A stretch of 64,000 nt of DNA, taken from positions 1 through 64,000 of the forward strand of contig JAJRCF010000009.1 in the NCBI GenBank assembly GCA_028679075.1. The letters run 5' to 3'. Shown piece by piece: positions 6,718 through 36,765 of this stretch. The notes beneath the pieces are model-generated. The model searched no databases. It was not told the origin of the DNA and was given only the letters and a program-made list of their open reading frames with translations. This DNA comes from Methanoregula sp. (GTDB lineage: Archaea; Halobacteriota; Methanomicrobia; Methanomicrobiales; Methanospirillaceae). The translations under genes and the position numbers were made by a program. The first letter of the stretch is position 1, and each line of letters opens with the position of its first letter.

Positions 6718-7783
6718 CCGGACCCGCCTCATCCGCCGTTTTTTGCCCCTTCTCCCCAAACAGGCGGCCGACTCCCATTGTCGTATTGATCCAGCGGAGT
6801 TCGTCGCAGGACTCGAAGATGAGGAGCAGCATCAGCGTGAACGGGATCGCAAAGAACATGCCGACCAGGCCCAGCAGCCAGCCCCAGAAGATCACAGAGA
6901 GGATGACGATGAGGGCCGGCATCTCGAACTTTCGTGCCGCAAGGAAGGAGTAGACAGGGTTTTCCACGACAAGGTTGAGGATGCAGATCGCAACGATGAC
7001 TGCGATTGCCCCCGGTATCCCGAACTGGAGCCAGGCAAAGAAGAGTGCCGGGACCGCTGCGATGATCAGCCCGAAATACGGGATGTAACCGAGAAGGAAC
7101 GTCAGGACCCCCCACAGGACCGCCCCGTGGACTCCCATGATCCCGAGGAATCCCCCGAACAGGAGCCCGTGGATGAAATTCGTCTCGGTCCTGACAACGA
7201 TGAAGTCAATGACGTAGCCGGACATGCGGGTGTACTTCCTGAGTGCATCCGCGTCCCTGCCGAGGGTACTCTCGATCTGGGTGAACAGCCGGGGCGAGTC
7301 CAGCAGTATGAAGAAGGTGGTCACGGCCACAAAGAAGAGGAACATGATCCCTTCAGCGAAACTGGCTGCCCCTGACACTGCATACCGCAGCATATCCCCG
7401 ATATCAAAGGACGAGGGGTTGAGTGCATCACTGGAGAATCCAACCGAGACGAGGAGGGCAGAGATGTCGGTGAGCCGGGTGTTGAGCTCCTGCTGGTACA
7501 TGGGGGCATCCGAGACCAGGGAGTTGAGCGATAATACGGTCATGAAAATGCCCCCCAGTATGATGAGGACTGCAATAATGGTGACGAGCAGCACTGCAGA
7601 AAAATTCGAGAGCCCTTTTGTTTTCAGCCAGTTGACCGCAGGCAGGACGAGCATGCTGAGGATGATGGCCATCAGGATGAGGCTGACGAGGTATGAGGTC
7701 ACCTTCACCGCGATGACAATGATAAAGACGAGCGCGATGATTAAAAGAGCGCGCTCAATCCGGAATTCGTCTGGAAGAGCCAT
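6710..7783 (-). CDS. AI-2E family (UPF0118) membrane permease
   Basis: 357 residues with the typical layout of the family: two N-terminal membrane helices (ALLIIALVFIIVIAVKVTSY and a second after it), a third near 60-85, a soluble segment (about 90-150) with amphipathic helices, then four to five helices to the C-terminus including LGIMGVHGAVLWGVLTFLLG and IPYFGLIIAAVPALFF. The IPYFG motif is characteristic. Some members export the quorum signal AI-2, others exchange sodium and protons; the substrate here cannot be told. It stands alone and converges on the lipoprotein gene. Confidence 0.88.
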   Translation of the reverse strand: MALPDEFRIERALLIIALVFIIVIAVKVTSYLVSLILMAIILSMLVLPAVNWLKTKGLSNFSAVLLVTIIAVLIILGGIFMTVLSLNSLVSDAPMYQQELNTRLTDISALLVSVGFSSDALNPSSFDIGDMLRYAVSGAASFAEGIMFLFFVAVTTFFILLDSPRLFTQIESTLGRDADALRKYTRMSGYVIDFIVVRTETNFIHGLLFGGFLGIMGVHGAVLWGVLTFLLGYIPYFGLIIAAVPALFFAWLQFGIPGAIAVIVAICILNLVVENPVYSFLAARKFEMPALIVILSVIFWGWLLGLVGMFFAIPFTLMLLLIFESCDELRWINTTMGVGRLFGEKGQKTADEAGPEK

Positions 7784-8230
7784 AGCACATTGGTATCGGA
7801 CGGGTGATCATACAAAGCTTATCCTGTCCGGCGTTGTTGCCCGGGCAGAGCAACCGGTGTTTGTTCCGGAAAAATATTCCCGGCCCGCGTCTTTCCTGCA
7901 ACGCAGGCCGGTAAAAATGGTGATGAGATCTTCCCGTCCGTTTACTACGGAGGGATGAGGATTATGGTGTCTTGGTGACGGGTGTGCTTCCCGCAATGGA
8001 CATTGACAGGTGTTTCTGCTGCTCGTGTTCCTGGTGTTCGTATGGCTGTACGACAATACCTGTGCAGTTATGCACCGGTATATGTAATGTATGTTTGACA
8101 TTTTGTTTTATATGCTTTCTGCTCGTCACGTCTGATATTCGCATATTGCGGGATATGGTTCACGACGGCCAGATGATCTGAATCGCTGGAACGGTCCGGG
8201 GGAGATGCGGTGCAGGCTGTTGCCATGCAC
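7784..8230. other. 447-bp intergenic stretch with an orphan TATA box
   Basis: No convincing gene. It lies between the 3' end of the kinase operon and the start of the permease gene. On the minus strand, a strong TATA-like agcatataaaac (8103-8117) would start transcription near 8087. The reading frames after it are Cys- or His/Thr-rich and look non-coding, so the box could drive a long permease leader or a small RNA. Confidence 0.4.
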
Positions 8231-26656: not shown

Positions 26657-29600
26657 TTACGGGTTAATCTTATCCCGGAACAGCGCCGGGTTCTGCCTCC
26701 GGATCCACCAGCGCCTGACCAGAAACCCCCCCGCTGCGAGAACAACACACACGACCCCGGCAGCCATCAGCGTGACGATGGGTAGACCGGAGTCCGGCTG
26801 CACACCGGGAACCGCTGTTGTCATGGTGACGATGGGGGTGGTCACGATTCCGTTACCCGTTACTGCTGATGAACTCCTGCCTGCTGCCTGTGTCGGGGCA
26901 TGATAGGCAGGTACCGTTCCTGTTGCCGTAACATTTCCTGATTCCTGCGTGATTCTGCGATCTCCGGTGATGGCAAACCTTGAGAAGCCGGTGCCCGTTG
27001 CTGTAAAGTACACCAGCCCGTTTGCACTATGATCGAGCGTTGTGGGGAGTGCCTGCCAGTCATTACCGGCATTATGGTACATGGTGATATCCTGCGGGGT
27101 GAAGCCATGCTCGTCCAGCCAGGATTGCGGGATATAGAACAGGATGGTCGTTGCGGTGATTGCCGTGTAGCGGGCCGGGGTGATGTCCGTATACTCGTAC
27201 ACCTCGCCGGGTGGCGGGGGAATGCCGTTGCCGGGCCCGTGGGCCTCCGTGGCGGTGATGATCACATCATTGACCTTCACACCGGTCACAGCCACCTGCA
27301 CGATGGAGGTGCGGCCCACCTGGCCGGCCGAAGCCGAGACGGTCTTCAGCTGGCTCTGCTGCAGGGTATTTTGCGCAGCTTTGGCATCGGCCGGATCGGC
27401 ATCCCCTCCGCTGGGGAGGGGGGGTTCCGGTGTTGGTATGGGAGTTGGTGAATATGTGTACGCCCCTGTCCCAGTAGCGGTGCCTCCGGGAACGGTAATG
27501 ACAACATTGACAGCCCCGGTTGCGTGGGCCGGTGTGGTTGCGGTGATCTGCGTATCGCTGATGACCGTCAATGCAGTTGCGGCCGTACCGCCAAATGTCA
27601 CCTGCGTTGCGCTGGCAAGCCCGGTTCCGGTGATCGTGACAGCAGTTCCCCCGGTCTCGATGCCGGAGGTTGGTGAAATGCTGGTGAACGACGGAGTTGT
27701 CGATTCGGTTGCGGTGAACCCGCTGGCAAGCACGGCAAAAAATCCTCGCGGGTTGGTGACCACGACATTATACCGACCGGCAATCCTGTTCGTCAGGTCA
27801 GATGTGCCGGTGATCTTCGTGGGCGAGGTGACCGTGACACCGGTTAAGGGAACGTTTCCGATGTCAACGATCTCCAGTGCATTGCTGAAACCGCTTGCCA
27901 CGTATGCGTACTTGCCGGACACGTAGACATGATGCGGGTAATCCAGATACGGAGCAACACCGCTTCCATCGGAAATGCTGCCCTTGTGTGTGGGGTTAGC
28001 CGGGTCGGAGATATCCACGATCTCCAGCGCGTCGCTGCCTGAACTTGCAACATACGCGTAATTGCCGGATACGTAGATGCTAACCGGAGAAGACAGGAGC
28101 GCACCCCCGGCTCCATTAACAATGCTCCCCTTGTGTGTTGGGTTTGTCGGGTCGGAGATATCCACGATCTCCAGCGCATTACTATCACCACCCACGTATG
28201 CATAACTGCCGGACACAGTAACGCCCCACGGGACTGACAGGAGCGCACCCCCGGCTCCATTAACAATGCTGCCCTTGTGTGTCGGGTTTGTCGGGTCGGA
28301 GATATCCACGATCTCCAGCGCGCTGCTGCCTGAACTTGCAACATACGCGTAGTTCCCGGAAACTGCAATTCCCTTTGGGGCATTTAACTGTGCCCCGCCA
28401 GATCCATCGCTGATCGTACCTGTGATGGCTGGACTGGTCGGGTCAGAGATGTCCACAATGTCCAGTCCGCCATCCCATGTGACATATGCATAATTACCAA
28501 TAACAATAACATCGTTCGTAGAGCCTGCATAGACTACGCTGCCCCGGTGGACCGGATTGGTCGGATCCGAAACGTCGATGATCTCCAGCGCATCATTATA
28601 ACCAACCACATATGCGTAACTCCCGGAAACCGCGACATTCACAGGTCCATCCAGGAGCGCACCCCCGGCTCCATTAACAATGCTGCCCTTGTGTGTCGGG
28701 TTTGTCGGGTCGGAGATATCCACGATCTCAAGCGCGTCGCTGCCTGAACTTGCAACATATGCGTAATTCCCGGATACGTAGACACCATAGGGCGTTTTTA
28801 ACCATGGGCCACCGGCATTATCGACAATGCTGCCCTTATGCGTTGGGTTTGCCGTGTTGGAGATATCCACGATCTCCAGCGCATCACTATCACCAACCAC
28901 ATATGCGTAATTCCCGCTAACAACAATACTTCTCGGATATGTCAGGTTTGCGGCACTAACTGAGGTAATATTTCCGGCATGCTGCGGTGCAGTCTTTGTG
29001 GCAATATTGACGATCTCCAGTGCGCTGCTGCCATATCCAGTCACATACGCAAAGTCCCCGACAACAACAACATCCTGCGGTTTTAAGATGGATGGAGCAT
29101 TTTTTGTAGTAATATTTCCGGCATGCTGCGGTGCAGTCTTTGTGGCAATATTGACAATCTCCAACGCGCTGTTACTGCTGGTTGTACCGCTTACAACGTA
29201 TGCATAATTCCCGGATACGTAGACATTCATTGAAGATGTCAGAGATGGCGCAACAGTCCGTGTCAGGGTTCCGGCAAGTGCCGGGGTGGCCGGGGTGGAT
29301 ACATCGATGATTACCAGCACACCCTGCATATTTGTTACATATGCGTAATCACCGGATACGGCAACGCTGTTAGCGAAATTGAGATTCGAGACTGTTGTCT
29401 TTGAGATGCTGCCCTTGTGTGTTGGGTTTGTCGGATCGGAGATATCCACGATTTCCAGCGCACCGCTGATATAACTTGCCACATATGCGTAATTGCCTGA
29501 TACGGCAACGCTGTAAGAGCCGTCCATGAGCGCCCCGTCGGTCCCATGGGAAATGCTGCCCTTGAGTATCGGTGTTGCCGGGTCGGAGATATCCACGATC

Positions 29601-30154
29601 TCCAGTGAATCGCTACCCTCACTTACCACATATGCATAATTGCCTGATACGGCAACATCGCGTGGTTTGTTTATAATAACAGCATCGTCAGATGTTATTT
29701 TACCCTTGTGTCTCGGGTTTGCCGGGTCTGTGATATCAATGATCTCCAAAGAATTGGTGTTATAACTTGCCACACATGCGTAATTACCGGAAACGGCGAT
29801 ACTGTAAGGATTGTCCAGTTCCGCGCCACCGACGCGGTTGATGATACTCCCCGTATGCACCGGGTTGACATTCACCGGTGTCAGCACCGCAGTCGCGCCG
29901 GTCTCGAAGTTTGTCCCGGCAAGGTTCGTGATGGAGACGGTGGTCGTGTTGACACCGGCCGATGGCGTGATGTCGGTGACCGAAGGGTACGCGGTCGAGA
30001 CCGGGATGACGGTAAGGAGGAGGGCTGCAAGGATGATAAAAACGATATGCCTGCCGGTGCGAGGGCCTCCGTTATGTGCGGGCCGGGGGAGGGCAGGAGC
30101 TCCGGCAATCTGCCGCTCCTGCTCTCCCGCTTCCCTGCTGTGCACCGCGGACAC
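26657..30154 (-). CDS. LVIVD-repeat surface protein with split TIG domain and C-terminal anchor
   Basis: 1165 residues, GTG start. A signal/anchor helix (HIVFIILAALLLTVIPVSTA, about 36-56) precedes the start of a TIG-like domain (VTDITPSAG, then NLAGTNFETGATAVL). Fourteen LVIVD-type repeats follow (core ALEIVDISDPTNPTHKG; about 85-790), which should form beta-propellers. The sequence then resumes with VTVTSPTKITGTSDL and AGRYNVVVTNPRGFF, which looks like the rest of the first TIG domain. A complete TIG domain (SFTSISPTSGIETGG), a Pro linker, a domain resembling the archaeal PGF-pre-PGF module and a final membrane helix (about 1128-1150) close the protein. It is predicted to be anchored outside the cell, perhaps for adhesion. 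Confidence 0.88.
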   Translation of the reverse strand: MSAVHSREAGEQERQIAGAPALPRPAHNGGPRTGRHIVFIILAALLLTVIPVSTAYPSVTDITPSAGVNTTTVSITNLAGTNFETGATAVLTPVNVNPVHTGSIINRVGGAELDNPYSIAVSGNYACVASYNTNSLEIIDITDPANPRHKGKITSDDAVIINKPRDVAVSGNYAYVVSEGSDSLEIVDISDPATPILKGSISHGTDGALMDGSYSVAVSGNYAYVASYISGALEIVDISDPTNPTHKGSISKTTVSNLNFANSVAVSGDYAYVTNMQGVLVIIDVSTPATPALAGTLTRTVAPSLTSSMNVYVSGNYAYVVSGTTSSNSALEIVNIATKTAPQHAGNITTKNAPSILKPQDVVVVGDFAYVTGYGSSALEIVNIATKTAPQHAGNITSVSAANLTYPRSIVVSGNYAYVVGDSDALEIVDISNTANPTHKGSIVDNAGGPWLKTPYGVYVSGNYAYVASSGSDALEIVDISDPTNPTHKGSIVNGAGGALLDGPVNVAVSGSYAYVVGYNDALEIIDVSDPTNPVHRGSVVYAGSTNDVIVIGNYAYVTWDGGLDIVDISDPTSPAITGTISDGSGGAQLNAPKGIAVSGNYAYVASSGSSALEIVDISDPTNPTHKGSIVNGAGGALLSVPWGVTVSGSYAYVGGDSNALEIVDISDPTNPTHKGSIVNGAGGALLSSPVSIYVSGNYAYVASSGSDALEIVDISDPANPTHKGSISDGSGVAPYLDYPHHVYVSGKYAYVASGFSNALEIVDIGNVPLTGVTVTSPTKITGTSDLTNRIAGRYNVVVTNPRGFFAVLASGFTATESTTPSFTSISPTSGIETGGTAVTITGTGLASATQVTFGGTAATALTVISDTQITATTPAHATGAVNVVITVPGGTATGTGAYTYSPTPIPTPEPPLPSGGDADPADAKAAQNTLQQSQLKTVSASAGQVGRTSIVQVAVTGVKVNDVIITATEAHGPGNGIPPPPGEVYEYTDITPARYTAITATTILFYIPQSWLDEHGFTPQDITMYHNAGNDWQALPTTLDHSANGLVYFTATGTGFSRFAITGDRRITQESGNVTATGTVPAYHAPTQAAGRSSSAVTGNGIVTTPIVTMTTAVPGVQPDSGLPIVTLMAAGVVCVVLAAGGFLVRRWWIRRQNPALFRDKINP
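27850..29860 (-). repeat. Fourteen tandem coding repeats (LVIVD), some nearly identical at DNA level
   Basis: The repeats are about 130-160 bases each. Three copies near 28100-28180, 28240-28330 and 28650-28735 share almost the same DNA, for example cccccggctccattaacaat, followed by a common run through the repeat core. Others have diverged (IATKTAPQHAG type, two adjacent copies at 28960-29170). The mixture points to continuing duplication or conversion within the gene. Confidence 0.85.
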
Positions 30155-31145: not shown

Positions 31146-31340
31146 ATGCACGACATCAAGGCCAGCAAGAAGATGGGGAATGACATTATGGTCTCCTTTG
31201 AGGTGGACGGGAAAAACCTGTTCGAGGCATTCAATTTCCAGGACCTCATCGATATGAAGATCAATGCATCCGACCTGCTTGACCGCCCCATGTCCTACCG
31301 GATCGACCAGGCGGCGCACAAGATTGTGTCGAAGAAGTAA
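31146..31340 (+). CDS. Small conserved-looking protein, function unknown
   Basis: 64 residues, charged, no membrane helix: KKMGNDIMVSFEVDGKN, then DLIDMKINASDLLDRPMSYR. An A/T-rich TATA-like element at 31094-31106 lies about 45 bases upstream and predicts a 20-base leader. The codon use resembles its neighbours. I do not recognise the family. It immediately precedes the redox operon but is separated from it by that operon's own promoter. Confidence 0.65.
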   Translation: MHDIKASKKMGNDIMVSFEVDGKNLFEAFNFQDLIDMKINASDLLDRPMSYRIDQAAHKIVSKK

Positions 31341-31394: not shown

Positions 31395-31420
31395 TATAAG
31401 TGTATAAGCAAACACTTATA
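31395..31420 (+). promoter_or_regulatory. 9-8-9 inverted repeat over the redox-operon promoter (candidate ArsR operator)
   Basis: Perfect arms tataagtgt (31395-31403) and acacttata (31412-31420) are separated by ataagcaa. The left arm is itself the TATA box (acatataag), about 30 bases before the ATG at 31429. The first gene encodes an ArsR-type repressor, and such proteins usually bind dyads of this kind over their own promoter. Confidence 0.65.
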
Positions 31421-31428
31421 CAGAATCC

Positions 31429-32319
31429 ATGGACCCGTACGATAAGGATGAAGAATGCACACGCCTCCGCGAGATCGTCCCCGCAATGGCCGGGACGTTC
31501 AAAGCGCTTGGCGACCTCACCCGGCTCCAGATCATCTACCTGCTCTCGACCGACACGAGCGGCACCCTTGGTGTTTCCGAACTTGCAGCCCGGCTTAAGA
31601 TCTCGCAGCCGGCAGTTTCGCAGCACTTAAAGACGCTGAAGACCGAGGGGCTTGTCGAGTCCCGCCGCGAAGGATTCTATATCTATTACACCGTCAACCG
31701 CGAACGGATGGTGGAGTTCCGGAAACATTTCGAGCTGATGTCCGGGACCGTGATGGCGAACTGCAACCGGGAGATGCTGCGGAGAACCGACCAGGGCAGG
31801 AGCGTCCGGGCCTGTGTCATCTACTATTCGTACTCCGGGATCACACGGAGGATTGCGGAAGGGATCCGGAACGCGAGCGGGTGCGACCTCATCGAAGTCC
31901 GGACAAAGACGACCTACACCAACTTCACCGCCTATACGACCGGTGTACTCCGTTCCCGTAAGGGTGCCTGCGACGCGATCGAGCCGGACGAGATCGATGT
32001 ATCGCAGTATGACCTCCTGATCATCGGCAGCCCGGTCTGGGCATGGAAGCCGTCGCCCGCCATCAATGCGGCGGTGAAAGCCCTCCGCGGCTGCGAAGGC
32101 AAGATGGCTGTGGTCTTCACCACCTGCTCCACCCATCCGGGCGAGGCACTGCCGATCATCAGCAGGGCGCTGGAGAAACGCGGGGTTACGGTCATGGCCG
32201 GGATCAGCATGGATGCAGAGGACACGAAGAACCCGGATGCGGGAGGCGAGATCCTCCGGCAGATCATCGCGGCTGACCCGCTCAGGGGTATGGATGAAGG
32301 AACAACAAACAGGACGTGA
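31429..32319 (+). CDS. ArsR-type HTH regulator fused to a flavodoxin
   Basis: 296 residues. Residues 15-100 form a winged helix of the ArsR family (FKALGDLTRLQIIYLLS, then LKISQPAVSQHLKTLKTEGL, then GFYIYYTVN). The usual metal-binding ELCVCDL motif is absent (here GTLGVSELAARL). After a linker, residues about 122-290 form a flavodoxin-like domain (IYYSYSGITRRIAEGI for FMN phosphate, IIGSPVWAWKPSP, VFTTCSTH). One protein therefore combines DNA binding with a probable FMN domain, suggesting redox- or flavin-controlled repression of the operon; this is inference. The next gene starts 4 bases after the stop, behind an RBS (ggacgtgag) that overlaps it. Confidence 0.9.
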   Translation: MDPYDKDEECTRLREIVPAMAGTFKALGDLTRLQIIYLLSTDTSGTLGVSELAARLKISQPAVSQHLKTLKTEGLVESRREGFYIYYTVNRERMVEFRKHFELMSGTVMANCNREMLRRTDQGRSVRACVIYYSYSGITRRIAEGIRNASGCDLIEVRTKTTYTNFTAYTTGVLRSRKGACDAIEPDEIDVSQYDLLIIGSPVWAWKPSPAINAAVKALRGCEGKMAVVFTTCSTHPGEALPIISRALEKRGVTVMAGISMDAEDTKNPDAGGEILRQIIAADPLRGMDEGTTNRT

Positions 32320-32323
32320 GACC

Positions 32324-32809
32324 ATGAAGACAAGTATTATTTACAACTCGTATTCCGGGAATACCCGGGGGATAGCAGAACAGATCCGGAAGAGCTGCGG
32401 TGGCGAGCTCATTGAGGTGAAGTCACTCGAGTACTCATCCCGGCTAACGGCATACACGATCGGGTGTTACCGTGCCATGAAAGAAGAGCGTGACCGGATC
32501 GAACCTGCCATTATCGATGTCTCCGGGTCAGACGTTGTCGTGATTGGCACGCCCGTCTGGGCGAAGAAAGCAACCACGGCCATCAACGGGGCGATTGCAG
32601 CATTGCAGGGATGTTCGGGAAAACGGGCAGTACTGTATGCAACCTGCGGGAATGCAGCCGGCGATACCCTCCCGATCCTGGCCCGGGCGCTTGAAGCAAA
32701 GGGCATGACGGTTACCGGACAGTTTGTCTTTACCCGGCAGGACCTCCGTGATGATAAGAAAGTGGAGGCACTGGCAGAGTGTGCGAACCAGACAGGACGT
32801 GCGTTATGA
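32324..32809 (+). CDS. Flavodoxin-like protein
   Basis: 161 residues. The N-terminal FMN loop is IIYNSYSGNTRGIAEQI, followed by VVVIGTPVWAKKATTAING and AVLYATCGNAAGDTLP. It is closely similar to the flavodoxin half of the preceding fusion protein, so the two are probably duplicates. The frame is open upstream to 32213, but that part overlaps the preceding gene; the ATG at 32324 has an RBS (ggacgtgag) 5 bases away. It should carry electrons within the operon's redox chain. The stop overlaps the next start (ATGA). Confidence 0.9.
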   Translation: MKTSIIYNSYSGNTRGIAEQIRKSCGGELIEVKSLEYSSRLTAYTIGCYRAMKEERDRIEPAIIDVSGSDVVVIGTPVWAKKATTAINGAIAALQGCSGKRAVLYATCGNAAGDTLPILARALEAKGMTVTGQFVFTRQDLRDDKKVEALAECANQTGRAL

Positions 32810-33609
32810 AGACTGTTATCTATTATTTCACCGGCACCGGCAACTCGCTTGCCGCTGCAAAAAAGATCGCCGCAGTGCTGGGGGACTGCGAGCTCGTACC
32901 GATTGCGTCGCTGAAGGATACTACCGGGGATATTGTCCCGGCAGCTGATCGTATCGGTATCGTTGCCCCGGTCTACTTCTGCGGGCTCCCCCTCCTCGTG
33001 GCATCGTTTGCAGAGCGCCTGGATCCTGCGGCGGCAAAGTACCTCTTCTGTATCATGACCCATGGCGGGGGCGGTGAGTCTGCGCCACTCCGGCAACTCG
33101 ACAGCATATTGCGGAAATGCCACGGGAGGGGGCTCGATGCGGGATTCGGAGTGGCCATGCCCGGTAATTACATCCTGATGTACGAATCCCCCTCGGGGAT
33201 GAAACGGCAGGAGATCTTACAAAAGGCGGATGACGAGGTCGCGAGGATAGCGGGGGCGGTCAGCCAGTGCGAAAAACGCACCCTGCCCTCCTCGCTTATC
33301 GGCCGGGTACTCCATGCGCTTGCGTACCCGTGGTTTGTTTCCCATGCCCATACCAGCGACAAAAAATTCACGGTCACGGACAAGTGCACGGCCTGCGGGA
33401 CCTGCGTTGCCATATGCCCGGCAAAAAATATCGAACTGATAAATGGAAAACCGGTCTGGAAACACCGCTGCGAGCTTTGCTGCGGCTGCATTCACACGTG
33501 CCCGGTGCAGGCCATCCAGGCCGGTAAGAAGACTGAAAACCGGGCACGGTACCTGAACCCGGAAATAAAAGTAGCGGACTTGAAAGCCCGGCACGGGGAG
33601 TCCCCCTGA
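32806..33609 (+). CDS. EFR1-type flavodoxin-ferredoxin protein
   Basis: 267 residues. The N-terminal flavodoxin-like half shows IYYFTGTGNSLAAAKKIA and a loop APVYFCGLPLLV. The C-terminal half holds two [4Fe-4S] motifs: CTACGTCVAICP and CELCCGCIHTCP. The layout matches EFR1-family ferredoxins, in which electrons could pass between FMN and two clusters. The chosen ATG at 32806 overlaps the preceding stop; nine more codons upstream lie inside that gene. The next gene begins 31 bases later. Confidence 0.9.
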   Translation: MKTVIYYFTGTGNSLAAAKKIAAVLGDCELVPIASLKDTTGDIVPAADRIGIVAPVYFCGLPLLVASFAERLDPAAAKYLFCIMTHGGGGESAPLRQLDSILRKCHGRGLDAGFGVAMPGNYILMYESPSGMKRQEILQKADDEVARIAGAVSQCEKRTLPSSLIGRVLHALAYPWFVSHAHTSDKKFTVTDKCTACGTCVAICPAKNIELINGKPVWKHRCELCCGCIHTCPVQAIQAGKKTENRARYLNPEIKVADLKARHGESP

Positions 33610-33640
33610 TGAACATTTTCCTGGATATGGGGAATTTACC

Positions 33641-34402
33641 ATGACAGAAACAAACGAACCCAACATGAATGTATCGTCGCGCCAGAACATCCGGAAATGG
33701 ATCCTTGTCCTATCATTCTTCCTCCTTCCGGTTACGCTCGCGTTCATCTCGCCCATTATCATCGTGATGGGAGCAGCGCAGGGTATTGCCACCGGCAGCA
33801 TGCTCCTGATCATCGCAAACTTCATCCTCTCCCTTGTCGTTGCCCGGCTCTGGTGCGGCTGGCTCTGCCCGATGGGCGCATGGCAGGAGATCTGTTCGCC
33901 GCTCGTTAAGCACACCGTGCAGGACGGCTGGCGCAACGCGATCAAGTACGGCGTCAGTGCACTCTGGCTTGCCCTGCTCGCGTACCTCTTCATCAGCGCC
34001 GGGGGGATCCGTGCCATTGATCCCTTCTTCGCCATGGAGAACGGCCTTGCGATCAACTCCCTTCCAACCCTCGTCGTGGTCGCGGTGATCTTCGCGATCA
34101 TGTTCATCGTTGCCTACCTCGCAGGACGGCGCGGGTTCTGTCATATGTTCTGCCCGGTTGCCCCCCTCCTGGTCGTCGGCCGGAAGATACGGAACAGCTT
34201 CCGCTGGCCGGCGCTTCAGCTCTCCGCTGACTCTTCCCTCTGCATTGACTGCAAAAAGTGCTCGAAGCAATGCCCGATGGGCCTTGACGTGAACGGCATG
34301 GTCCGGAAGGGAGAGATGGAGAACCCTGACTGCATCCTCTGTGCGAGTTGCGCCGATGCCTGCCCGAAAGGTGCGATCGCGTACGGATGGAATAAGAACT
34401 GA
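33641..34402 (+). CDS. NapH/YccM-like membrane polyferredoxin
   Basis: 253 residues. Four membrane helices (about 20-42, 48-70, 97-118, 130-155) carry the two CxxxCP motifs of NapH-type quinol or electron carriers: WCGWLCPMGAW and FCHMFCPVAP. Two C-terminal [4Fe-4S] motifs follow (CIDCKKCSKQCPMG and CILCASCADACPKG). Such proteins pass electrons between the membrane and soluble carriers, so here it probably links the flavodoxins and EFR1 protein to the membrane. It is the fourth gene of the operon, 17 bases before the next. Confidence 0.9.
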   Translation: MTETNEPNMNVSSRQNIRKWILVLSFFLLPVTLAFISPIIIVMGAAQGIATGSMLLIIANFILSLVVARLWCGWLCPMGAWQEICSPLVKHTVQDGWRNAIKYGVSALWLALLAYLFISAGGIRAIDPFFAMENGLAINSLPTLVVVAVIFAIMFIVAYLAGRRGFCHMFCPVAPLLVVGRKIRNSFRWPALQLSADSSLCIDCKKCSKQCPMGLDVNGMVRKGEMENPDCILCASCADACPKGAIAYGWNKN

Positions 34403-34419
34403 ACCCGGAGAGAACTGAC

Positions 34420-35028
34420 ATGGACGGGATTGGCACCGGAAGGAAAATCCTCGATGATGTATCTGACCGGATCATTGCGATCACTTCGCGCCGCTCTATG
34501 CTCATCGCCCTTGCCGGGCTCCTCATCACCGGTGCTCTCGTCAATGGCCGGCCATTCGGCGTTGCAGAACTCAAATCGATCACGGGTGGTGTGGGTATCC
34601 TTGACATGGAAGTATTATACACGCCGGACCAGGCGTACGCGTTCCTTGCTGCGATGGGGGAAGCCGGCCGGTCGTTCGAGCTGACCCGGATCATCCCCCT
34701 TGACCTGCTTGTCCCGTTCTTCTACGCGCTCTTCCTCTCGACATTCATCACCTGGCTCCTGCACAGGTGGCTCCCTGCTGAGAGCAGGTGGTACCGGCTC
34801 AACGTTATCCCCGTAATCGGGGCACTCTTCGATTACCTGGAGAACATCGGGATCATCGCGATGCTGCTTGTCTGGCCTGCAGAGATGTATAGTGTTGCGC
34901 AAATTACCATGGCGGCCACGCTTCTCAAGTTCGGGTTCAGTGTGCTTGCCGGTATTATCGTTATTGCGGCTGTGGCCGGCTGGGTTTTTATGATAATCAG
35001 AAGCCGTTATGGCAGGAGTCCGGCGTAA
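34420..35028 (+). CDS. Integral membrane protein of the redox operon, family not recognised
   Basis: 202 residues with about four membrane helices: MLIALAGLLITGALV, PLDLLVPFFYALFLSTFI, IPVIGALFDYLENIGIIAML and FSVLAGIIVIAAVAGWVF. A segment between helices 1 and 2 (LYTPDQAYAFLAAMGEAGR) should face one side of the membrane. There are no cysteines or clear haem ligands. Tight spacing on both sides (17 and 18 bases) makes it part of the operon. Possibly it partners with the NapH-like protein; that is inference from position only. Confidence 0.75.
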   Translation: MDGIGTGRKILDDVSDRIIAITSRRSMLIALAGLLITGALVNGRPFGVAELKSITGGVGILDMEVLYTPDQAYAFLAAMGEAGRSFELTRIIPLDLLVPFFYALFLSTFITWLLHRWLPAESRWYRLNVIPVIGALFDYLENIGIIAMLLVWPAEMYSVAQITMAATLLKFGFSVLAGIIVIAAVAGWVFMIIRSRYGRSPA

Positions 35029-35046
35029 TAACCGGGACAGGTGTGT

Positions 35047-36132
35047 ATGGAAGAGAACAACCGCCGGTACCGCGAGACCTTCGATACAACGATCGGGGAG
35101 ACCATCAGCCAGGCGATCCGGATCATCGCGTCCGATACGGCGCTCGTCATCCCCGGTACGGTCATCCTCCATCACCAGCGGAAGGCGGCGGACGTGCGGA
35201 AGAAGCACGAGGTGGGCGGGCTTCTCGTCCCGCCGGTGATCATTGCCAGCATCACCTCCCGCTGCAACCTCGCGTGCGCCGGCTGCTACATGCACGGGCG
35301 CCATGAGAAGCCCGTACCGGAGATGGACCCGGCAACGCTTGCCTCAGTTGCCGACCAGGCAACGGAACTCGGGGTCTCGGTCTTCGTTATTGCCGGTGGC
35401 GAACCGCTCGTCAGGCAGGACGAGATCTTCCGGATTGCAAAAGCCCATCCCGCGATCCTCTTCCCGGTCTTCACGAACGGGCTCCTCATTGACGACGCGG
35501 TTGCCGAAACGATCACATCGTGCCGGAATCTCGTCCCCATCATCAGCTTCGAAGGGTTCCGCGAGGACACAGACTCGCGCCGGGGGGACGGGGTGTATGA
35601 CCGGCTGCTTGCGATTTGCGCCCGGCTGAAACGCCGGAATATCTTCTTCGGCTGTTCGGTCACGACCACACGGGAGAATTTTTCCAGCGTCACGGACGAG
35701 TCGTTCATCCGGCAGATGACCGGTGCCGGCGCCCGGGTCTTCACGTTTGTCGAGTACGTGCCCATGGAGCCCGGCACGGAGGACCTCGTCCTCACCCACG
35801 AGCAGAAAAAGGTCCTCCAGGTTGTCCTGTCGGATTTCAACCGGAAATTCCCGGCACTCTTTATCGGTTTCCCCGGCGATGAGGATGCGTACGGCGGTTG
35901 CCTTGCGGCGGGTCGGGGCTTCGTGCATGTCAGCCCGGCCGGGGACCTTGAGCCATGCCCCGCGGCGCCGTACTCGGATGCAAATCTTACGAAGATACCG
36001 CTCAAAGAGGCGCTCGCCTCCCGGGTGCTTGAGCGGATCCGCGAGGCGCCGGATGTCCTTACGGAAACGAGCGGCGGTTGTGCGCTCCGGGCGAACCGGG
36101 CGTGGGTGCAGGAGATCATGGGCCGTCAATAA
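35047..36132 (+). CDS. Radical SAM protein with C-terminal cysteine region
   Basis: 361 residues. The cluster motif is SRCNLACAGCYMHG (CxxxCxxC, near residues 75-85). VFVIAGGEPLVRQDE is the GGEP SAM-binding motif, and IISFEGF and FFGCSVTT fit the barrel. The C-terminal part (GGCLAAGRGFVHVSPAGDLEPCP) resembles a SPASM-like auxiliary-cluster region. Substrate unknown; proteins of this architecture modify peptides or cofactors or take part in haem chemistry. A GTG at 35041 would add two residues, but aggtg upstream of the ATG at 35047 is the better ribosome site. It follows the membrane protein by 18 bases. Confidence 0.88.
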   Translation: MEENNRRYRETFDTTIGETISQAIRIIASDTALVIPGTVILHHQRKAADVRKKHEVGGLLVPPVIIASITSRCNLACAGCYMHGRHEKPVPEMDPATLASVADQATELGVSVFVIAGGEPLVRQDEIFRIAKAHPAILFPVFTNGLLIDDAVAETITSCRNLVPIISFEGFREDTDSRRGDGVYDRLLAICARLKRRNIFFGCSVTTTRENFSSVTDESFIRQMTGAGARVFTFVEYVPMEPGTEDLVLTHEQKKVLQVVLSDFNRKFPALFIGFPGDEDAYGGCLAAGRGFVHVSPAGDLEPCPAAPYSDANLTKIPLKEALASRVLERIREAPDVLTETSGGCALRANRAWVQEIMGRQ

Positions 36133-36147
36133 TATTGGGAGAAAAAA

Positions 36148-36666
36148 ATGGAAACAAACGGAAATGAACAGAAAGACCCGCGTGCGATGAAATCTCTCGT
36201 GGTCGTGTTCTCTTATCATCACAGGAATACGGAGAAGATCGCACACGCCATCGCAAACGTATTGGGTGCTGAAGTAAAAACGCCCCGGCAGGTCCGGCCC
36301 GAAGAGATCGCGGAGTATGACCTCATAGGCTTCGGCTCAGGGATTTATGGCGCAACATTCCATGCATCCGTCCTTGACCTTGCCGACCGGCTCCCCGCCG
36401 CTGCGGGAAAAAACGCCTTCCTCTTCTCAACGTACGGGGCCCCGGCAGTTTTTGTGGACAGGAAATTTGTGGAGAATAATCACCGGCAGATCCGGGAGAC
36501 GCTGCTGGCGAAAGGGTACACGATAACCGGTGAATTTGGTTGTGCAGGTCTCAACACGAACAGTTTCCTGAAATATTTCGGGGGCCTCAATAAGGGCAGA
36601 CCTGATGCGGAAGACCTCCGGCATGCGGAAGCGTTTGCCCGGAACATGAAAACAAAAGTTGCGTGA
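36148..36666 (+). CDS. Flavodoxin-like protein, last gene of the redox operon
   Basis: 172 residues: VVVFSYHHRNTEKIAHAIA (FMN loop variant with HHRN), LIGFGSGIYGATFHAS, AFLFSTYGAP and a CAGLNTNSFLKYFGG segment near the end. It belongs to a different flavodoxin branch from the two earlier ones. An ATG at 36187 (MKSLVVVF) is a possible later start; the ATG at 36148 is preceded by ggagaaaaa and is kept. It is followed by AT-rich terminator sequence. Confidence 0.88.
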   Translation: METNGNEQKDPRAMKSLVVVFSYHHRNTEKIAHAIANVLGAEVKTPRQVRPEEIAEYDLIGFGSGIYGATFHASVLDLADRLPAAAGKNAFLFSTYGAPAVFVDRKFVENNHRQIRETLLAKGYTITGEFGCAGLNTNSFLKYFGGLNKGRPDAEDLRHAEAFARNMKTKVA

Positions 36667-36670
36667 AACA

Positions 36671-36765
36671 ATTTTTTTTATTTTCAAAAAAATTCCGGAA
36701 TTTTTTCCGGATTTTCTCATTACATTAAAAAAAAATTTCAAAATTTTTTTCTTTTTTCTTTTACA
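36671..36765 (+). terminator. AT-rich terminator region of the redox operon
   Basis: The operon ends in several oligo-T runs (attttttttatttt, aattttttcc, ttttttttc near 36747). They surround a 12-base palindrome aattccggaatt near 36689. Such tracts are the usual archaeal terminator. Confidence 0.6.

Follow-up and report, generated by a model that had tools for sequence, protein, structure and literature searches.

Repressors of the ArsR/SmtB family share a winged-helix fold, and their hallmark is the helix-3 metal motif ELCVCDL, which many family members lack. In the BigR/SqrR persulfide sensors a helix-2 cysteine is paired with a helix-5 cysteine, and the sensor of MsvR, a redox-type regulator of methanogens, is V4R-type. 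We know of no described regulator with a flavodoxin as its input domain, and we are not aware of an account of the means by which the state of low-potential electron carriers is sensed in hydrogenotrophic methanogens. Here we analyze a 64,000-nucleotide stretch of Methanoregula sp. DNA (contig JAJRCF010000009.1, positions 1 to 64,000; hereafter the window) from a draft genome of ~2.5 Mb in 40 contigs. In it, seven genes, A to G, begin with a fusion of an ArsR-type winged helix to a flavodoxin and continue with further flavodoxins, an EFR1-type flavodoxin-ferredoxin, a NapH-like membrane polyferredoxin, a membrane protein of unassigned family and a radical S-adenosylmethionine (SAM) protein. 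An annotation made from the letters of the window (the original prediction) had described these genes as a redox operon led by the fusion. With some reserve, we favor a reading of the seven genes as an electron-carrier operon that controls its own expression in methanogens of the Methanomicrobiales type, with a flavin mononucleotide (FMN)-binding autoregulator of the ArsR type at its head. The fold classes involved are already known; what appears to be new is the combination of an ArsR repressor and a flavodoxin with a single-site operon. A search of the open-licence literature, to which subscription papers and preprints do not belong, found no description of a flavodoxin as a regulator input domain or of an ArsR-flavodoxin protein with its own operon, and the matched passages of PMC11237513 and PMC3543383 contain nothing on an ArsR-flavodoxin fusion.

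A single operator-like dyad precedes the fusion gene

Gene A (31429–32319, plus strand) encodes the fusion. Upstream of it, on the same strand, lies a TATA-box-like element, TATAAG, at 31395–31400, with A-rich bases ahead of it. Directly downstream of this element is an operator-like dyad, TGTATAAG-CAAACA-CTTATACA, which spans 22 bp (31401–31422) and ends 6 nt ahead of the start codon. A dyad had been predicted near 31395–31420; it proved to be real, and its better conserved register is the one given here. The upstream regions of fusion loci have a block in common, TATAAGTG-TATAAGCAAACACTTATACA, which ends 4–8 nt before the start codon, and the flank beyond it is at background. Across 39 aligned loci, conservation of the TATA element amounts to 1.2–2.0 bits per column, compared with 0.0–0.3 bits further upstream. 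Because the TATA element lies inside the conserved block, a regulator would explain only part of the conservation.

The dyad TGTATAAG-N6-CTTATACA is present within 2 mismatches at 34 of 44 fusion loci (20 exact, 12 with one mismatch, 2 with two), and the same threshold was reached in 1 of 7800 draws of a shuffle control (200 single-base shuffles × 39 loci). Since the pattern was drawn from the same, related loci, the weight of the argument falls on how the block stands out against the diverged flank, and not on the shuffle alone. When whole genomes were scanned at this threshold, exactly one site was found in each of 15/15 hand-picked fusion genomes, invariably ahead of the fusion; it matches perfectly in 11 of them, with one mismatch in 3 and with two in 1. 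Five fusion-less genomes were scanned as well, and only one of them, G113, has a site, a single one with two mismatches (loci and genomes are designated by L and G numbers, respectively). The possibility of a wider regulon was rejected, as no second site at ≤2 mismatches occurs in the 15 fusion genomes. A single site per genome, always at the fusion, points strongly to a dedicated autoregulator, and as the dyad separates the TATA element from the start codon, a bound protein would block initiation. Based on these upstream sequences, gene A very probably regulates its own operon through the dyad, and the dyad data, which suggest a regulator with a single target, are the strongest evidence of the analysis.

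The fusion is conserved as a two-domain protein

The gene A product consists of an ArsR-type winged helix (residues ~16–114), a variable linker and a Flavodoxin_4 domain (~126–283), the two domains scoring 54.8 bits for HTH_5 (PF01022, cut-off 22) and 42.3 bits for Flavodoxin_4 (PF12682, cut-off 24). The predicted fold of the protein from locus L053 matches NolR, SmtB and HlyU in its N-terminal half and, in its C-terminal half, 3edo and 3klb, two structures determined with FMN. These structure matches support an FMN-type flavodoxin fold, in line with the original prediction. The model has a predicted local distance difference test score (pLDDT) of 83 and a predicted template modeling score of 0.54, and its domain arrangement is unreliable. 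Among the 50 best PDB matches there is no sensible one across both halves, and the handful of long alignments are to receptor chains with root-mean-square deviations of ~20. In the phosphate loop, S-x-[ST]-G-x-T, residues S134, G137 and T139 are invariant and residue 136 is Ser or Thr in 44/44 copies, in all of which W204 is also invariant. Given the match to FMN-bound 3edo and 3klb together with this invariant loop, it is likely that the flavodoxin domain, as modeled, binds FMN.

Both halves of the window fusion are under similar purifying selection. Ratios of nonsynonymous to synonymous substitution rates (dN/dS; NG86, window versus five relatives) are 0.05–0.12 for the helix-turn-helix (HTH) half and 0.11–0.14 for the flavodoxin domain, while the linker, at 0.5–2.0 with one value not computable, is less constrained than either half. 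Among the matches listed, down to ~E 1e-32, at least 40 of 199 genomes of the order have one that spans HTH and flavodoxin. Thirty-eight of these are uninterrupted; of the remaining two, that in G193 begins inside the HTH, at a point where the stretch of this genome (L049) reads N, and that in G175 is interrupted by a stop (a split pair, L075). The fusion genomes are spread over four family codes of the order (f1, f2, f4 and f5), and this recurrence, together with purifying selection on both halves, argues that the fusion is no chance product.

Outside the order no fusion was found: in a phylum sample of 345 genomes that also took in members of the order, all 13 full-length matches are in-order. 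With the HTH half alone as query, 245 genomes gave 14 matches at E 1e-18, of which 8 lie in known fusion genomes of the order and 6 are unfused and outside it, the nearest being those in G206 and G296. Not one of 72,556 plasmid records matched the fusion query over 80% of its length at any position. A contig scan seeded by exact matches to short peptides from the window fusion returned 17 loci, all from Methanoregula, Methanoregulaceae or Methanomicrobiales; such a scan recovers close relatives only, and absence from bacteria does not follow from it.

HTH and flavodoxin also occur as split adjacent pairs, at L075 and L079, with no EFR1, NapH-like or radical SAM gene alongside. The original prediction had raised the case of relatives in which the fusion is split without shared regulation. 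Split pairs do exist, but the partners stand side by side, so that shared regulation is not refuted. At L075 (4986–8282) the two genes are 3 nt apart, and what comes after them in place of redox genes is an ATPase gene of an ABC transporter (PF00005) and a gene for a membrane protein. At L151 (G206, outside the order; 7287–8181), an unfused ArsR gene with the helix-5 cysteine lies directly before an EFR1-like gene that is apparently broken, which hints that regulator and EFR1 were neighbors before the fusion arose. Unfused ArsR relatives at L152 (7007–7372) and L153 (6568–6954), both from another family of the phylum, have the helix-5 cysteine and a C-terminal Cys-rich tail and no N-terminal cysteine; each adjoins a membrane transport protein (PF03547 for L152).

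A cysteine site is present in many copies and reduced in the window

The original prediction had argued from the missing ELCVCDL motif that the fusion could sense FMN or its redox state. The motif is indeed missing, in that helix 3 (residues 46–58) contains no cysteine in 44/44 aligned copies, but the argument drawn from it is weakened, as the window copy is atypical of the family. An N-terminal CxxCxxCxxxC (C4, C7, C10, C14) is complete in 27 of the 44 copies; three of its cysteines are present in 3 copies, two in 4, one in 7 and none in 3. Codons 4–14 of gene A (31438–31470) hold a remnant of this motif in which only C10 (31456–31458) remains. Cys112 in helix 5 (31762–31764 in the window) is invariant in 44/44 copies, is also aligned in the unfused L075 and L151, and can be recognized by eye in L079, L152 and L153. 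The prevalence of the N-terminal motif and the invariance of Cys112 make a metal or Fe-S (iron-sulfur) site plausible for the family.

In a tree computed with the site columns excluded, the division between copies with at least three of the four cysteines and copies with fewer needs seven changes, and the well-supported branches alone force at least three for the group with 0–2 cysteines; this was a quick tree with SH-aLRT support only and one long branch flagged. The rows nearest to the window (L034, L039, L051 and L052; fork support 88) all have four cysteines, and the window copy has therefore most likely lost three of its four, loss and gain not being separable by the tree alone.

These patterns bear on a different reading, in which the protein senses a metal, a metalloid or sulfane sulfur. 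The N-terminal cysteines and Cys112 would form the input site, and the flavodoxin would serve as a tethered carrier or as a reductase that resets the cysteines. Beyond the invariance of Cys112, this reading is favored by the presence of C10, C14 and C112 together in the unfused outgroup L151, by the match of gene A to the NF033788 metalloregulator subfamily (84.5 bits, cut-off 55), by the ABC transporter gene pair behind the split pair at L075, and by cysteines at helix-2 position 37 in L061 and L062 (Tyr37 in the window), which we take to be the site used by SqrR. The dyad is also somewhat more often kept within two mismatches in four-Cys copies (23/27) than in the others (11/17), but those 11 include all three copies without any N-terminal cysteine. 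Further against a Cys-based input, 42/44 copies lack a helix-2 cysteine, none has one in helix 3, and no efflux or arsenic gene was recognized among the recurring neighbors. The last point is a weak one, since only some neighbors were family-searched: beyond redox families, the searches covered PAS/histidine-kinase, amine-oxidase-like and alpha/beta-hydrolase families, and other neighbors were judged from their first residues. A regulator of metal or arsenic efflux was rejected, with neither a helix-3 motif nor an efflux gene recognized among the neighbors so covered and with the ABC pair at L075 as the exception. Taken together, we consider it unlikely that the cysteines, and not the flavin, are the real input.

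Redox genes follow the fusion in a variable set

The positions of the seven open reading frames (ORFs), 31429–36666 on the plus strand, were verified. Adjacent genes are 4 (A-B), −4 (B-C, ATGA overlap), 31 (C-D), 17 (D-E), 12 (E-F) and 15 nt (F-G) apart; with 5 of 6 gaps at ≤17 nt, the tight spacing noted in the original prediction holds, and the layout supports its proposal of a single operon with the regulator first. T-rich tracts before the promoter (~31346) and directly 3′ of gene G (36672–36684, plus strand), the latter a possible transcription end, are consistent with a single transcript. A small ORF of 64 amino acids (31146–31340), upstream of the promoter and followed by the first of these tracts, has no match in Pfam or NCBIfam and may be a separate small gene.

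Pfam and NCBIfam searches bore out the predicted domain assignments, with the qualification that D is only NapH-like and F has no named-enzyme match. Gene B (32324–32809) encodes a flavodoxin (Flavodoxin_4, 32.4 bits, cut-off 24) that shares 46% identity with the flavodoxin domain in A and is likely a tandem duplicate of it. The product of gene C (32806–33609) is an EFR1-family flavodoxin with two 4Fe-4S motifs (NF038196, 251 bits, cut-off 75). Gene D (33641–34402) was assigned as a NapH-like membrane polyferredoxin from its motifs, two CX3CP outside and two CX2CX2CX3C inside the ferredoxin part, and from NapH matches that fall below cut-off (TIGR02163, NapH/MauN, 63.4 versus 213.05 bits; NF007013, 54.1 versus 234).

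Gene E (34420–35028) encodes a helical membrane protein whose family has a conserved D-x-x-E-N motif and is scarce (5 of 196 phylum genomes); in G041 it is present with no full-length fusion match. It has no match in Pfam or NCBIfam, its best PDB sequence match is at E 0.24, and its model is good (pLDDT 90.6), yet the best PDB fold match reaches only E 0.21. Gene F (35041–36132, with a possible alternative start, ATG, at 35047) encodes a radical SAM protein (PF04055, 57.5 bits, cut-off 29.5) with CX3CX2C at residues 75–82 and three C-terminal cysteines that are found, by eye, in distant orthologues too. It exceeds the cut-off of no named radical SAM enzyme (NirJ, AhbD, viperin and others); among the best 25 of 56 families, NirJ ranks first at 71 versus 515. 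Gene G (36148–36666) encodes the third flavodoxin (Flavodoxin_3/5), with scores slightly over the cut-offs. A defence role was considered and rejected, the PADLOC matches being those of a generic HTH to Csa3/CasR (A) and of a generic radical SAM domain to pVip at 38 bits (F).

Cargo was counted at 33 loci whose downstream sequence extends for 6 kb or more, in a tblastn scan of 7.5 kb of the coding strand. EFR1 is the most constant partner (30 loci), followed by radical SAM (25), NapH-like (21), flavodoxin B (18), flavodoxin G (14) and E (13); an FMN-reductase family protein (PF03358) occurs at 7 loci, and all 33 carry EFR1, NapH-like or radical SAM downstream. The genes are therefore conserved together elsewhere, as the original prediction expected, but loosely and with variable membership, and its fixed set of seven was not borne out. 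At L056–L058, from one genus, only an FMN-reductase gene and a radical SAM gene follow the fusion (with less than 6 kb available at L058).

The original prediction had also suggested that electrons run from the membrane to the radical SAM enzyme; as a general function, this was not upheld either. The radical SAM gene is absent from 4/13 genomes with a full-length fusion in the phylum samples and from 5/14 hand-picked fusion genomes, so it is not an obligate end of the path. Its orthologues in other families of the phylum are 44–49% identical, and at the eight loci inspected (L139–L146) no EFR1, NapH-like or fusion gene lies beside them; a flavodoxin adjoins the orthologue at L140 and an FMN-reductase-like gene is nearby at L146. 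The radical SAM protein thus looks like an independent enzyme frequently recruited to the operon and not its defining end point. Away from the fusion cluster, a TetR-type regulator (PF00440) adjoins gene F orthologues at L145 (6252–8013), L146 (6876–8605) and, within the order, L149 (7029–8845), which hints at a small-molecule or lipid-linked role.

The distribution of flavodoxin B bears on another alternative, in which the flavodoxin domain of the fusion is itself a working carrier and repression stops while that carrier is engaged with a partner, as in a trigger-type protein. The 15 of 33 loci without a separate flavodoxin B, where the fused domain may substitute, and the split adjacent pairs at L075 and L079 would suit such an arrangement, but 18 of 33 loci retain a separate flavodoxin too, and we think it quite improbable.

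Elsewhere in the window, the minus strand at 26657–30154 encodes a protein of 1165 amino acids with LVIVD repeats (PF08309, 410 bits, 12 stretches) and a TIG domain.

Discussion

The fusion itself, the layout of its locus, the conserved single-site dyad and the recurring partners can be read directly from the sequences; from these features we infer DNA binding, repression, binding of FMN and metal, redox sensing and the direction of electron flow. Under the model of a self-regulated carrier operon, gene A would encode an ArsR-type repressor, presumably a dimer as in its family, which would occupy the 22-bp dyad downstream of the TATA element and so shut off the operon to which it belongs. Its affinity for DNA would depend on the flavin, through reduction state or occupancy, and in many relatives the cysteine site (N-terminal CxxCxxCxxxC plus Cys112, with a metal or Fe-S) may assist this flavin input. 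In this way the fusion would report the redox state of a pool of low-potential carriers: a shift in the pool would release the promoter, and more carriers, namely EFR1 flavodoxin-ferredoxins, free flavodoxins and NapH-like membrane polyferredoxins, would be produced. The radical SAM protein would be one client, in many species. Whether flavin redox is the signal we regard as an evenly balanced question.

Several observations weigh against this model. Ten of the 44 loci have 3–6 dyad mismatches (three mismatches at four loci, four at one, five at two and six at three). They include L056–L058, in which all four cysteines are present, and the deep lineage L074 and L076–L078, which has a different upstream pattern. 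The dyad pattern read backwards, used as a control, gave 14 sites in 20 genomes, which places isolated two-mismatch sites at chance level and exact sites above chance. In 14 of the 44 fusion copies no more than two N-terminal cysteines are present, and the tree requires three or more changes; the N-terminal site is therefore not essential everywhere. All six downstream families of the window occur together at only 4 of 33 loci (the window, L036, L037 and L038). In G016, a genome without the fusion, EFR1, two NapH-like genes and E are consecutive (L164, 2847–6728), so that the cargo can exist apart from the regulator. An FMN reductase initially placed in that cluster was dropped, since stricter tblastn left EFR1, the two NapH-like genes and E only.

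That the fusion senses nothing, and is a constitutive autorepressor that holds the operon level steady with a flavodoxin adding only dimer stability, would fit the one target per genome but is very unlikely, because the invariant phosphate-loop residues and the dN/dS of the flavodoxin domain imply more constraint than a passive scaffold seems to need. A bolder version of the carrier-operon model makes the transcription factor itself an electron carrier: electrons from the EFR1 and NapH-like carriers that it controls would pass via an N-terminal Fe-S site to FMN, and the protein would read the reduction of the pool directly to set carrier supply. We think this improbable; if it were true, lineages without the N-terminal cysteines, including that of the window, would read the pool by flavin alone.

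As the locus comprises a single regulator, a single 22-bp site and a single operon, the question of carrier sensing should be approachable in vitro with purified protein and short DNA. That the N-terminal cysteines are repeatedly missing offers a natural experiment, through which an input by flavin might be told apart from one by metal or Fe-S.

Compared with the ArsR/SmtB regulators SmtB, CzrA, CadC, NolR and HlyU, the fusion has the winged-helix fold, the sequence family and a dyad at its own promoter in common, but it lacks the helix-3 Cys motif, bears a C-terminal flavodoxin and in many copies has the N-terminal CxxCxxCxxxC and the helix-5 cysteine. The latter residue and the ArsR fold are also found in the persulfide sensors BigR, SqrR and YgaV, from which the fusion differs in the helix-2 cysteine, missing from 42/44 copies, and in its score of 42 bits for NF040642 against a cut-off of 155. 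MsvR is, as proposed for the fusion, an archaeal redox-type regulator of methanogens, but its V4R-type sensor takes the place of the flavodoxin, and NF053755 scores 18 bits against a cut-off of 220. Gene D has CX3CP and CX2CX2CX3C in common with the quinol-linked polyferredoxins NapH/MauN, at a score of 63 against a cut-off of 213; as Methanomicrobiales are not, to our knowledge, known to possess quinones, its partner must differ from theirs. The Flavodoxin_4 proteins 3edo and 3klb have the same fold and phosphate-loop pattern as the fusion but stand alone, with no regulator attached. The EFR1 family (NF038196), to which gene C belongs, is here placed behind a dedicated regulator and in some relatives contributes several EFR1-like genes to a single locus.

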